Below are positions 12,916 to 31,909 of a stretch of 33,963 bases of DNA, piece after piece. Made by a program: the position numbers and the translations under genes. Source of the DNA: a bacterium (GTDB taxonomy: Bacteria; Patescibacteriota; Minisyncoccia; UBA6257; UBA9933); contig JAJYWO010000018.1 of NCBI GenBank assembly GCA_021791445.1, positions 1-33,963 on the forward strand, in the 5' to 3' direction. How positions within the stretch are numbered: the first letter of the stretch is position 1; each line of letters opens with the position of its first letter. The notes under the pieces were generated by a model, which saw only the letters and a list, made by a program, of their open reading frames with translations, did not search any database and had not been told where the DNA came from.

Positions 12916-12944
12916 TTGTTTTTCAAGCGAATTTTTGATATTAT
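12916..12944 (+). promoter_or_regulatory. Putative gyrB promoter TTGTTT-17-TATTAT
   Basis: Hexamers at 12916-12921 and 12939-12944; predicted +1 at about 12951, inside the 5' arm of the terminator hairpin. Confidence 0.5.
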
Positions 12945-12947
12945 AAC

Positions 12948-12970
12948 AATACCCAAACGGGTATTTTTTG
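12948..12970 (+). terminator. Intrinsic terminator between the pilin-like gene and gyrB
   Basis: AATACCC AAAC GGGTATT TTTT. Confidence 0.7.
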
Positions 12971-12976
12971 ATAAAA

Positions 12977-14941
12977 ATGGTTAAAAAATTAAAAGAAAAA
13001 ATCGCAAAAACTGAAGAAACGAAACAGCAAAACAGCGTTTCTTACGGCGCCAAGGATATTTATGTTTTGGAAGGCTTGGAGCCGGTGAGAAAACGGCCGG
13101 GAATGTATATCGGCGGCACCGGCGTTGACGGCTTGCATCATTTGATTTGGGAAGTGGTGGATAATTCCATTGACGAAGCAATGGGCGGTTTTGCCAAAAG
13201 TATCAGGGTTGAGATGTTGCCGAATAACAGGATATCGGTTCAGGACGACGGCCGTGGCATTCCGGTTGACATTCATCCGCACACGAAAAAATCCGCTCTG
13301 GAAACCGTGATGTGCACTTTGCACGCCGGCGGAAAATTTGGCGGAGATTCTTACAAGGTTTCCGGCGGTTTGCACGGCGTCGGCGTTTCGGTGGTGAACG
13401 CGCTTTCCAAATGGCTGAGAGTGGAAGTTTGCCGCGACGGCTATCTTTATTTTCAAGAATATGAAAAAGGCAGGCCCAAGGCGGCGGTAAAAAAATCCGG
13501 CAAGTGCGAAGGCAACGGCACGAAAGTTATTTTTGAAGCGGACCCGGAAATTTTCAAGGAAATAAAATTTGAAAGGAAAAAAGTCATTGACCATTTGCGG
13601 CAGCAGGCGTTTTTAACCAAAGGAATAAAAATAGAAATTATTGATAAAAAAGACCCAAAAGCCGCGCCAGTTTACCATTCTTTTTATTTTGAAGGCGGAT
13701 TATTGTCTTTTATCAATTATGTCAATCGTTTTAGAAAATCGGTCCAGAAGGAAATTTTTTATGTCCATAAAGACTATGAAAAAATGGAAATTGAGGCGGC
13801 TTTCACTTATAACCATGAAATTGAGACATCGGAATTGAGTTTTGCCAACAATATTTACACTCCCGACGGCGGAACGCATTTGACCGGATTGCGTTCGGCG
13901 CTCACAAAAACTTTAAACGATTACGCAAGAGCTAATAATTATCTTAAAGAAAAAGACGAAAATTTCACCGGCGACGATGTCCGGGAAGGACTGGTGGCGA
14001 TTGTTTCCGTGCGGCTGCCGGAACCGCAGTTTGAAGGTCAGACCAAAGCGCGTTTGGGAACTCCGGGAGCCAGAACCGCGGTTGAATCGGTTGTCGGTGA
14101 ATCGCTGAAAGAATTTTTGGAAAAAAATTCTCCGGATGCGCGGGCGATAATTGAAAAGTGCATGTTGGCGCAAAAAGCCCGCAAAGCCGCCAAGGCTGCC
14201 AAGGAAACGGTTTTGCGCAAAGGCGCGCTGGAAGGAATGACTTTGCCGGGCAAGCTTGCCGATTGTTCAAGCAGAAAAGCCGAAGAATCGGAATTGTTTA
14301 TCGTGGAAGGCGACAGCGCCGGCGGAAGCTGTAAATCTGCTCGCGATCGTCGAACTCAAGCAATTTTGCCGCTTAAGGGAAAAATTTTGAATGTGGAAAA
14401 ATCGCGAATTGACAAAATGCTGGCGAACAACGAGATAAAATCTCTGGTTATCGCTTTGGGAACCGCCATCGCCGACAATTTGGACATTTCCAAACTTCGT
14501 TACCATAAAATCATCATAATGACTGATGCCGACGTTGACGGCGCTCATATTAGAACTTTATTATTAACTCTTTTTTATAGGTATTTCCGTCCGGTGATTG
14601 AGGGAGGATATTTATATATCGCTCAGCCGCCGCTGTATAAGATTCAAAAGGGAAAAGAAGCTCAATACGCCTACAATGACGCCGAAAAAGAAAAAATTAT
14701 TAAAACTTTTGGCGGCGCGCAAGGCGTGAATATCCAAAGATATAAAGGTTTGGGAGAAATGAATCCCGAACAGCTTTGGGAAACAACCATGGACCACGAC
14801 AAAAGATCGTTGAAATTAGTGGCTGTTGAAAACGCCGAAGAGGCCGACAGGCTGTTTGATATTCTGATGGGCGAGGTTGTCGAGCCGCGCAAGGCTTTTA
14901 TTTCCAATCAAGCGGCAATGGTGAAAAATCTTGACATATAA
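12977..14941 (+). CDS. gyrB: DNA gyrase subunit B
   Basis: VRKRPGMYIGGTGVDGLHHLIWEVVDNSIDEA, GGLHGVGVSVVNALS, EGDSAGGSCKSARDRRTQAILPLKGKILNVEK, TDADVDGAHIRTLLLTLFYR. Start taken at the internal ATG 12977 (ORF track gives 12968). Confidence 0.97.
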   Translation: MVKKLKEKIAKTEETKQQNSVSYGAKDIYVLEGLEPVRKRPGMYIGGTGVDGLHHLIWEVVDNSIDEAMGGFAKSIRVEMLPNNRISVQDDGRGIPVDIHPHTKKSALETVMCTLHAGGKFGGDSYKVSGGLHGVGVSVVNALSKWLRVEVCRDGYLYFQEYEKGRPKAAVKKSGKCEGNGTKVIFEADPEIFKEIKFERKKVIDHLRQQAFLTKGIKIEIIDKKDPKAAPVYHSFYFEGGLLSFINYVNRFRKSVQKEIFYVHKDYEKMEIEAAFTYNHEIETSELSFANNIYTPDGGTHLTGLRSALTKTLNDYARANNYLKEKDENFTGDDVREGLVAIVSVRLPEPQFEGQTKARLGTPGARTAVESVVGESLKEFLEKNSPDARAIIEKCMLAQKARKAAKAAKETVLRKGALEGMTLPGKLADCSSRKAEESELFIVEGDSAGGSCKSARDRRTQAILPLKGKILNVEKSRIDKMLANNEIKSLVIALGTAIADNLDISKLRYHKIIIMTDADVDGAHIRTLLLTLFYRYFRPVIEGGYLYIAQPPLYKIQKGKEAQYAYNDAEKEKIIKTFGGAQGVNIQRYKGLGEMNPEQLWETTMDHDKRSLKLVAVENAEEADRLFDILMGEVVEPRKAFISNQAAMVKNLDI

Positions 14942-25735: not shown

Positions 25736-27169
25736 ATGAATAAATTTTACATCACCACTCCCATTTATTACGCGAGCGGGGAGCCTCATATCGGCCACGC
25801 CTTTGCCGTTATTTTTGCGGATGTAATTGCGAGATATAAGCGGCAAAAAGGTTTTGATGTTTTTTTTCTTACCGGAACCGATGAGCATGGCTCGAAAATC
25901 GCCGAAAAAGCGAAAGCGGCCGGAAAAAATCCGCAGGAATACGTTGATGAAATTTCTAAACTGTACGCTGATTTATGGAAATCGTTGCAAATCCAAAACA
26001 GCGATTTCATCAGGACCACTTCGGAGAAGCATAAGGCGGGCGTAGAAAAATTTATTGAAAAACTTTGGCAAGCCGGCGATATTTATCAAGGCGAATACGA
26101 GGGGCTTTATTGCGCCGGTTGTGAAAATTTCATTTTGGAAAAAGATTTGGCAAACGGCTTATGTCCGGATCATTTGTTGAAGCCGGAATTGGTCAAAGAA
26201 AAAAATTATTTTTTCAACCTTAAAAAATACATTCCGTTTATCAAAGAAAAAATCGGCAATAATGAATTAAAGATTATTCCCGAGAGCCGCAAGAACGAAA
26301 TTTTAAACATTTTATCCGCCAATTTGCCGGATTTTTCCGTTACCCGCGAAAAAGTCCAATGGGGCATTCCTTTTCCTTATGAAAAAGAGCAGATAATTTA
26401 CGTTTGGGCCGACGCTTTGACAAATTATTTGTCGGGATTGGATTTCCCGGACGGCGAGAAATTTAAAAAATATTGGCCCGCGGATGCTCATATTATCGGC
26501 GCGGACATCAATAAATTTCATTCAATTTATTGGCCCGCGCTTTTAATGTCGGCTGGGATTGCTTTGCCGCGAAAAATTTTCGTTCACGGATTATTTACGG
26601 TGAACGGCCAAAAAATGAGCAAAACGCTTGGCAATGTCATTGACCCGAAAGTTTTGATTGAAAAATTCGGTCCCGACGCGACCAGATACCTTTTACTTTC
26701 GCAATTCCCGGCTTTTGAGCACGGCGATATCAATGAAAACGGATTTATGGAAAAATATAACGCCGATTTGGCGAATGGCGTAGGTAATTTATTTGGAAGG
26801 GTTTTCGCTATGGCGAGGCGATTTGAAATTAAAGAATCCGGGTTGGATAATGAGGTGGTAAAAATTATCAACGAAACAAAAGAAAAATACGAAAAATGGA
26901 TGGAGAATTTTCAATTATTTGAAGCGCTGAAAGAAGTTTTTGTTTTGGTGAAATTTTTGGATAAATACATCAATGAAAAACAACCGTGGAAAAGTCCGGA
27001 AAATTTGCCGCAAATTTTAAATTCTCTTCTTTCGGGAGTGGAGGAGATAATTGTTTTATTGTCGCCGTTTATGCCGCAAAAAATGGAAGCGGCAAATGAT
27101 TTTCTCAATAGATTAAAATCCGGCAAAATTCAACCGGACGAAAAACTCGGTCTTTTCCCGCGAGTTTGA
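25736..27169 (+). CDS. metG: Methionyl-tRNA synthetase
   Basis: FYITTPIYYASGEPHIGHAFAVIFADVIARYKR, FLTGTDEHGSKI, KMSKTLGNVIDP. Confidence 0.98.
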   Translation: MNKFYITTPIYYASGEPHIGHAFAVIFADVIARYKRQKGFDVFFLTGTDEHGSKIAEKAKAAGKNPQEYVDEISKLYADLWKSLQIQNSDFIRTTSEKHKAGVEKFIEKLWQAGDIYQGEYEGLYCAGCENFILEKDLANGLCPDHLLKPELVKEKNYFFNLKKYIPFIKEKIGNNELKIIPESRKNEILNILSANLPDFSVTREKVQWGIPFPYEKEQIIYVWADALTNYLSGLDFPDGEKFKKYWPADAHIIGADINKFHSIYWPALLMSAGIALPRKIFVHGLFTVNGQKMSKTLGNVIDPKVLIEKFGPDATRYLLLSQFPAFEHGDINENGFMEKYNADLANGVGNLFGRVFAMARRFEIKESGLDNEVVKIINETKEKYEKWMENFQLFEALKEVFVLVKFLDKYINEKQPWKSPENLPQILNSLLSGVEEIIVLLSPFMPQKMEAANDFLNRLKSGKIQPDEKLGLFPRV

Positions 27170-27194
27170 CTTTTGTGGGCTGTTATGTTATATT
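27166..27194 (+). promoter_or_regulatory. Putative promoter TTGACT-17-TATATT for the SPFH operon
   Basis: Hexamers at 27166-27171 and 27189-27194, overlapping the metG stop; predicted +1 at 27201. Confidence 0.55.
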
Positions 27195-27195
27195 T

Positions 27196-27222
27196 AGCCC
27201 AAATCAAGGGGCTTTGCTTTTT
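27196..27222 (+). terminator. Putative metG terminator
   Basis: AGCCC-AAATCAA-GGGGCT followed by TTGCTTTTT. Confidence 0.55.
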
Positions 27223-27322
27223 GATTTCGGACTTTACAAATGAAATAAGAAAAACCCGCTCATTAGAGCGGAAAAGAAAATAAAAGAAAGAAAAGAAAGG
27301 CCGAATGGCCGAGGAGGATGAG

Positions 27323-28856: not shown

Positions 28857-28900
28857 AGCCTCATTGTTTTACAATAATATGTAATCAATGGGGCTTTTTT
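28857..28900 (+). terminator. Intrinsic terminator
   Basis: AGCCTCATTG...CAATGGGGCT followed by TTTTT. Confidence 0.75.
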
Positions 28901-28901
28901 C

Positions 28902-28929
28902 TTGACAATATTTTTTAATAGCCGATAAT
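28902..28929 (+). promoter_or_regulatory. Promoter TTGACA-16-GATAAT for pilin-like gene
   Basis: Starts within 2 nt of the preceding terminator T-run; predicted +1 at 28936, ATG at 28937. Confidence 0.6.
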
Positions 28930-28936
28930 TATAATA

Positions 28937-29314
28937 ATGAAAAACAGCCGTAAAATATCTCTTTTTATTTTATTTTTAACTTTTTCTTTTGTGTTGGGTA
29001 ATTTTGTTTTGGCTGTTCAATCATCTTGTCCTGGCGGTTCCGGCCTTTGCGATCCTTTTAACGGCAAGCAACTTACCGATATTCTTCAAAAAATCATCGG
29101 TTATCTTATTGGAATCGGGGCGCCGATTGTGGCGATTATGGTGATTTACGGCGGGTTTTTGATTTTGACCGCGGGCGACAGTCCGGAAAAAGTGAAATCC
29201 GGCAAAGACGTGATTTTGTGGGCGGTTGTGGGCTATGTGATTGTGTTGTGCTCGTGGGGAGTTTTGTATATAATTAAAGAAATAACCGGGGCGAATATAC
29301 CGGCATTAAAATAA
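28937..29314 (+). CDS. TrbC/VirB2-like pilin-type protein, Cys-containing type
   Basis: Signal peptide, SSCPGGSGLCDPF, two TMs, GGFLILTAGDSPEKVKSGKDVILWAVVGY. Confidence 0.72.
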   Translation: MKNSRKISLFILFLTFSFVLGNFVLAVQSSCPGGSGLCDPFNGKQLTDILQKIIGYLIGIGAPIVAIMVIYGGFLILTAGDSPEKVKSGKDVILWAVVGYVIVLCSWGVLYIIKEITGANIPALK

Positions 29315-29649: not shown

Positions 29650-30096
29650 ATGTTTACTCCAAAAAAATTTATTATTTTATCAATAATTATATTATTTACT
29701 TTTTTATTACTAAGTTTTGTTAACGCCGTTAGTTCTTATGAAGGAAAAGTTGCTGAGCCGGGTATCGGTGGCATTCCTCAGGGGGCTAATATTAAAGAAT
29801 TTGGCGGGGTAGTTAAAATTGTTATGGAAGTTACCAGATGGACTTACACGATATTTTTCATAATCGCGGTCTTGTATATTCTTTTCGCGGCTTATACTTA
29901 TTTAACGGCGCAATCCGAACCGGAGAAAATCAAAAGCGCGACCAACCAAATTATTTACGCCACCATTGCTATTGCTGTGGCTTTGCTGGCAGTGAGCATA
30001 AACGCGATAGTGAGGAGCATTATCAAGCCGGCGGGGACGGGCGGGGAAGGAACGGGCGGGAGCCCAAGTTTAAATCTTATTATTGACAAAGTATAA
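29650..30096 (+). CDS. TrbC/VirB2-like pilin-type protein
   Basis: VTRWTYTIFFIIAVLYILFAAYTYLTAQSEPEKIKSATNQIIYATIAIAVALLAVSINAIVRSII. Start 29650 chosen because it lies just after the previous stop. Confidence 0.75.
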   Translation: MFTPKKFIILSIIILFTFLLLSFVNAVSSYEGKVAEPGIGGIPQGANIKEFGGVVKIVMEVTRWTYTIFFIIAVLYILFAAYTYLTAQSEPEKIKSATNQIIYATIAIAVALLAVSINAIVRSIIKPAGTGGEGTGGSPSLNLIIDKV

Positions 30097-30112
30097 AATT
30101 TGTGCTTATATT
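30083..30112 (+). promoter_or_regulatory. Promoter TTGACA-18-TATATT for lipoprotein gene
   Basis: TTGACA at 30083-30088 lies inside the pilin gene's last codons; TATATT at 30107-30112; predicted +1 at 30119. Confidence 0.55.
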
Positions 30113-30115
30113 TTA

Positions 30116-30137
30116 CCAGTCCTTAAGACTGGTTTTT
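30116..30137 (+). terminator. Intrinsic terminator
   Basis: CCAGTC-CTTAA-GACTGG-TTTTT. Confidence 0.75.
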
Positions 30138-30172: not shown

Positions 30173-30679
30173 ATGAAAAAGATAGCGGCGATAGGTTTTG
30201 TTTGTTTGATAGTTTTAGTGGTAGGTTGCGCGGCACATTTTGGTAATGAGGCGCAGTATGAAAAAGGCGACTGGTATTTTCTCGCTGGCTCACAGGAAGT
30301 TGCCAAGATTCAGAGCGATAAGGCTTCGTTGGCGCATAATAAAACAGTCAGCGCAATGGCCATTGATAAACTAAAATCTCAGCCAATAGAGACAAAAATT
30401 GTTAATGGCGCGACTCAGGGTTATAAAGGCATTATTCATAATTTGAGTTATGAACGAGCCAATATAATCATTACGGGTCCTGAGAAAAAAAGTTATTTTT
30501 TGGGAGCAAAAGAAAAAATAGAGGATTTTCTTTTGCCGGGGAAATATTGCGCCGAGACTTATGTTGGAGGGAGAAAGATGGGGAAGGGATGGATTTTTTC
30601 CGTCGGCGTGCCCCAATATAATTATTTGGGTCACAATGTGCATTGGTATGTGTATTATGACCCAAATCCTAGTAATTAA
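30173..30679 (+). CDS. Lipoprotein, unknown function (168 aa)
   Basis: Lipobox LVVGC after a short hydrophobic stretch; SD GAGGAGG. Confidence 0.72.
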   Translation: MKKIAAIGFVCLIVLVVGCAAHFGNEAQYEKGDWYFLAGSQEVAKIQSDKASLAHNKTVSAMAIDKLKSQPIETKIVNGATQGYKGIIHNLSYERANIIITGPEKKSYFLGAKEKIEDFLLPGKYCAETYVGGRKMGKGWIFSVGVPQYNYLGHNVHWYVYYDPNPSN

Positions 30680-31681: not shown

Positions 31682-31715
31682 GAAGTAGTAAGTAGAAAGC
31701 ATAAAGTATAAAGAA

Positions 31716-31747
31716 AAACAAGTTTGTCGCAAGACAAGCTTGTTTTT
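31716..31747 (+). terminator. Intrinsic terminator
   Basis: AAACAAGTTTGTC-GCAA-GACAAGCTTGTTT followed by TT. Confidence 0.8.
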
Positions 31748-31768
31748 CTTTAATTGATTTGTTATTAT
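31740..31768 (+). promoter_or_regulatory. Putative rpmH promoter TTGTTT-17-TATTAT
   Basis: -35 lies in the 3' arm/T-run of the preceding terminator; predicted +1 is the A of the rpmH ATG. Confidence 0.5.
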
Positions 31769-31774
31769 ATTGGC

Positions 31775-31909
31775 ATGTCTACAACGCGACAACCGAAAAA
31801 GAAAAAAAGAAGCCGGACGCACGGATTTTTGAAGCGTAGCCGCACAACCGGAGGCAAGAATGTGCTGAATAGAAGGAGAAGGAAGGGAAGGAAGAAAATT
31901 ACTGTGTAA
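31775..31909 (+). CDS. rpmH: 50S ribosomal protein L34 (absent from the ORF track because it is short)
   Basis: [44 protein letters not shown]; directly upstream of rnpA. Confidence 0.96.

Follow-up and report, generated by a model that had tools for sequence, protein, structure and literature searches.

Overlap of a predicted lipoprotein promoter with a terminator-like hairpin at the end of a pilin unit in a compact Patescibacteria genome: most likely an ordinary consequence of a short spacer

At one junction of a small Patescibacteria genome, the predicted start of a lipoprotein transcript falls within the hairpin that appears to end the preceding pilin unit. This locus raises the question of whether start sites are set inside terminator stems as a recurring design or whether two ordinary signals happen to overlap in a short spacer. 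The whole stretch of DNA that was analysed (33,963 nucleotides; hereafter, the window) corresponds to contig 9 in a genome of 480,895 bases that is 98% complete, and the closest named relatives of the YidC encoded here belong to Candidatus Wolfebacteria. Gene order in the region is a T4SS pilin array (PF18895) followed by rpmH, rnpA and yidC, and an Rfam search of the window returned tRNAs only. The whole analysis was computational, and the window features described below are on the forward (+) strand.

The upstream gene, pilin 3 (29650–30096; Pfam match to PF18895, T4SS_pilin), ends with a TAA stop codon at 30094–30096, and its last codons contain the -35 element TTGACA (30083–30088) of the putative lipoprotein promoter. 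The -10 element TATATT (30107–30112) follows after a spacer of 18 nt; an alternative -10, TGC-TTATAT (30106–30111), would have a spacer of 17 nt. This promoter, with 11 of 12 consensus matches, a score of 8.5 from a model trained on this genome and hexamers spaced within the 16–18 nt range, is of the sigma70 type. A discriminator of 6 nt after the -10 element places the predicted start of the lipoprotein mRNA at 30118–30119, and +1 near 30119 falls in the 5' arm of the hairpin ACCAGTC-CTTAA-GACTGGT (30115–30133), which is followed by TTTT (the whole element being 30115–30137). With its fold of -9.1 kcal/mol (z -4.5), its GC-containing stem, its T-run and its excess over chance, the hairpin resembles an intrinsic terminator, and it was the sole terminator candidate detected between pilin 3 and the lipoprotein gene. 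The latter gene (30173–30679), which was without a match in Pfam, has a lipoprotein-like MKKIAAIGFVCLIVLVVGC start, a strong SD (GAGGAGGTG) and a leader of 54 nt. On direct reading, every coordinate proposed by an earlier, sequence-only reading of this junction was right, namely TTGACA, TATATT 18 nt later and +1 at 30119 inside the 5' arm.

Each class of signal was evident above chance in a survey of 336 kb of stretches (70% of the genome), for which genes were called with a simple purpose-made gene caller and promoters with a model trained on the regions upstream of genes in this genome. Thus, hairpins of -9 kcal/mol or stronger followed by a T-run were noted at 24 of 117 tandem junctions as opposed to 0.8 in shuffled sequence, and promoters scoring above 8 were noted upstream of 31 genes as opposed to 3.4, an excess that is inflated by training and testing the model on the same regions. 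Because each class exceeds its shuffles, the focal promoter and the focal terminator, taken separately, are probably both real.

The explanation that we favour, by a modest margin over even odds, is a compact boundary between two transcription units, at which the pilin operon ends in a weak intrinsic terminator that is overlapped by the sigma70-type promoter of the next gene, that of the lipoprotein. Polymerase coming from the pilin side would copy the whole dyad, fold the hairpin of -9.1 kcal/mol and stop at the T-run, whereas polymerase initiating at 30118–30119 would miss the first 3–4 bases of the 5' arm, so that lipoprotein RNA would be left with a remnant of 3–4 bp and would not be stopped. 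The calculated fold of this remnant is +0.1 kcal/mol from 30119 and -1.5 kcal/mol from 30118, in agreement with what the earlier geometry implied, that RNA begun at +1 is unable to rebuild the stem. The result is sensitive to the assumed +1, and a start at 30117 would leave -4.1 kcal/mol. The difference between the remnant and the read-through stem is the reason for assigning the hairpin, as most likely, to the pilin transcript and for regarding it as lost from the lipoprotein transcript, an assignment that depends on the predicted +1. The mechanism is thus plausible for this single site, and we infer from sequence both the position of +1 and the working of the two elements.

Comparison with relatives gave a single homologue of the lipoprotein, in one genome (G012) among 244 genomes of the order, where it is encoded in the same pilin array on the opposite strand and has its own promoter (L071:12303-12845). 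There was no hairpin at the predicted +1 of this single, inverted homologue. At its 3' end, an apparent shared terminator was noted. None of the pilin relatives offers the same pilin/lipoprotein junction.

Whether the overlap recurs more often than spacing predicts was evident from same-strand junctions that carry both a terminator and a promoter, with each hairpin placed at random in its own spacer. Random placement was used in place of shuffle-based overlap counts, which were not kept as the main test, since promoters are lost throughout a shuffled sequence. In the 336 kb of this genome, +1 was inside a hairpin at 3 of 21 junctions, and 2.74 were expected from random placement; thresholds in this survey were arbitrary and numbers small, and two promoter cut-offs gave a like picture. 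All three of these junctions lie in the window. Outside the window, over 302 kb of this genome, there were none among 16 junctions (1.9 expected), and in six relatives (400 kb) there were none among 14 junctions (1.2 expected). From three junctions, the sequence-only reading had proposed a recurring design of compact genomes, and it had named distances like those of random placement in short spacers as the outcome that would count against this proposal. That outcome was obtained, and no further cases appeared elsewhere. The focal overlap is genuine, yet such overlaps are not more frequent than would be expected from tight spacing, and since two elements in short spacers overlap about as often by chance, no special design is needed.

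The grouping of three cases within one 34-kb window, and the start of the hairpin just 3–5 nt upstream of +1, are what might still speak for a selected, recurring placement of +1 inside terminator stems. Against these stand the agreement between observed and expected counts, the absence of cases elsewhere in the genome and in relatives, and differences in kind among the three cases, so that such selection, already largely refuted by random placement, is very improbable. The other two junctions, neither of which had been named in the sequence-only reading, were taken as those upstream of gyrB (hairpin 12948–12965) and of an SPFH/Band 7 gene (hairpin 27196–27213). Nor are the three alike: at gyrB the hairpin begins at +1 and, across relatives, is retained in the transcript of that gene, while the SPFH promoter is conserved in two relatives without the terminator-like hairpin.

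At the SPFH junction (27166–27213), the promoter TTGACT-17-TATATT overlaps the hairpin AGCCC-AAATCAAG-GGGCT. From comparisons made partly by eye, this promoter is conserved in relative G003 and readable in relative G011, the terminator-like hairpin is not conserved in either of the two, and in G003 the gene upstream of SPFH appears to have its own terminator. As a separate observation, a hairpin of the GGCCGAATGGCC type directly before the SD is common to SPFH leaders (27308–27322 in the window; L114 and L115), the promoters of which lie well over 100 nt upstream.

The gyrB junction (12916–12969) has a promoter, TTGTTT-17-TATTAT with the extended -10 TGATATTAT, that is conserved in relatives together with a hairpin and T-run. 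In the window, the hairpin ACCC-AAAC-GGGT begins 6 nt after the extended -10, at the predicted +1 (12951), and the gene starts at 12977. Relatives have either the same ACCC/GGGT stem or different ones (ACGCC/GGCGT, GCTC/GAGC, GTCC/GGGC), and in several of them the gene upstream of gyrB appears to have a separate terminator. By fixed criteria, a hairpin at +1 followed by a T-run was found in 8 of 13 gyrB leaders of the family (mean of 0.70 and maximum of 3 in 200 shuffles) and, with the same layout, in 7 of 14 rpsL leaders of the family (0.46 shuffled), although these are not clean P values because the criteria were set after gyrB had been seen and the species are related. In other families, 4 of 16 gyrB leaders carried the hairpin (0.49 shuffled). 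The conserved hairpins are at 12948–12969 in the window, at L050:9546-9527 for rpsL of this genome and in L091–L107 and L139–L159; an Rfam search of the gyrB loci gave nothing significant besides tRNAs. The calculated fold that RNA starting from +1 retains ranges, for gyrB, from -3.1 to -6.7 kcal/mol and, for rpsL, from -1.4 to -5.1 kcal/mol. The gyrB copy is more than a terminator of the upstream gene, and the element that recurs at gyrB and rpsL may be a 5'-terminal attenuator or stabiliser.

Across the genome, hairpins with a T-run were also in excess at 1–11 nt after the -10 element (6 compared with 0.65 shuffled, and 5 compared with 1.0 in relatives). A second set of 771 kb from relatives gave 7 hits (1.3 expected) with much weaker clustering of offsets, and a generic class of hairpins at +1 was rejected on this evidence, since 4 of the 7 hits were at gyrB or rpsL and the feature looks gene-specific. 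Two side observations were made at these genes. In the rpsL leader of this genome, a very stable palindrome (-30 kcal/mol; L050:9513-9478) separates the 5' hairpin from the start codon, and the gyrB frames of three relatives, G011, G014 and G021 (L104, L108 and L109), are 1214, 1138 and 1100 amino acids long, respectively, with homology split into two or more pieces, which suggests inteins.

As a counterpoint to the favoured explanation, the focal site falls within the offset range of the genome-wide excess and may for this reason be a gyrB-like element of a 5' leader. The hairpin and T-run would then form the 5' terminus of the lipoprotein transcript and serve as a promoter-proximal attenuator or pause site or as a stabiliser of the 5' end. 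In favour of this are the concentration of such elements at 1–11 nt after the -10 (almost none at 12–31 nt) and the conserved architecture at gyrB and rpsL. Yet the focal remnant is weaker than that of all gyrB and most rpsL leaders, most of the 5' arm is upstream of +1, and the pilin operon yielded no alternative terminator candidate, which together make this reading of the lipoprotein site unlikely. A related and similarly doubtful proposal is that the +1 hairpin and U-run of gyrB and rpsL form a minimal promoter-proximal attenuator in this lineage. Transcription would halt or pause near +20, expression of gyrase and of the str operon would be tuned in this way, and the lipoprotein site would be a related element, either drifting or sporadic. 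Palindromes of the 7-5-7 form across +1 occupy the classical position of an operator. The focal dyad is such a palindrome and sits over +1, so that a repressor bound there could control the lipoprotein gene with the T-run incidental in AT-rich DNA; however, the T-run directly follows the stem and the hairpin fits the terminator class of this genome, and we give an operator little credence. The most likely account is that of an ordinary site, at which a stop signal and a start signal overlap within a short spacer.

Better support was obtained for another layout. In the two further junctions mentioned in the sequence-only reading, the -35 element indeed lies directly after a terminator or inside it. 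At 28857–28936, terminator arms (28857–28866 and 28886–28895) and a T-run (28895–28900) are followed by TTGACA at 28902 and GATAAT at 28924, and the predicted +1 (28936) adjoins the ATG at 28937, which would make the transcript leaderless. At 31713–31775, the -35-like TTGTTT (31740) is in the 3' arm of a terminator (31713–31748), the -10 TATTAT is at 31763, and the predicted +1 of rpmH is the A of its ATG (31775); leaderless rpmH was noted by eye in L055 and L167 also. A -35 element in the 3' arm or T-run of a terminator was found at 7 junctions (3.5 expected), six of which have a leader of 0–3 nt. Among 193 genes that start a unit, 20 had a -10 element ending 5–10 nt before the start codon, compared with 3.5 per 6-nt bin elsewhere, and no SD was present in the 36 genes with a looser -10 motif at that position. 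SD motifs are scarce in this Patescibacteria genome. Leaderless promoters appear from these patterns to be common in the genome, so that promoters would be pushed against the preceding terminator. A leaderless promoter with its -35 in the preceding terminator is a better-supported recurring layout than +1 within a stem.

The focal site shows how transcription units pack in a 481-kb genome, where the same bases belong to a stop and to a start signal with no sign of a special design. The 5'-terminal hairpin of gyrB and rpsL and the leaderless layout are better leads than the focal overlap. Both the former, with its U-run, and the frequent use of leaderless promoters with a -35 supplied by the preceding terminator are, as far as was searched, new for these bacteria if RNA data confirm them; nothing directly on point was found in literature on promoter-terminator overlap or leaderless genes in these phyla.

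In Zymomonas mobilis, for instance, promoters have been reported to lie within the gene upstream (PMC7566282). As in other cases of a terminator overlapped by the promoter of the next gene, a hairpin and T-run would end one unit at the focal site and a sigma70-type promoter would begin the next. Unlike the usual overlap, the predicted +1 is in the 5' arm, so that the signals share bases and new transcripts would lose the stem. Palindromes whose role, terminator or operator, is set by tandem start sites have been proposed for autoregulators (PMC2965389), and here too the role would depend on a start upstream of the palindrome or within it, but the neighbouring genes encode a pilin and a lipoprotein without a known regulator. 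Leaders of rpsL with terminators have already been described as widespread and multiform, the attenuators having a terminator-like hairpin and T-run but no sequence or structure that is conserved globally (Naville and Gautheret 2010, PMC2965389). The family studied here likewise has hairpins in rpsL leaders, but these start at +1 or a few bases from it, and the same layout is present at gyrB, whereas "gyr" occurs 0 times in the main text of that paper. In leaderless promoters such as those of mycobacteria (PMC4633059), the -10 likewise ends 6–9 nt before the ATG without an SD; the promoters described here differ in being from Patescibacteria, in being predicted from sequence and in having a -35 that is often within the preceding terminator.
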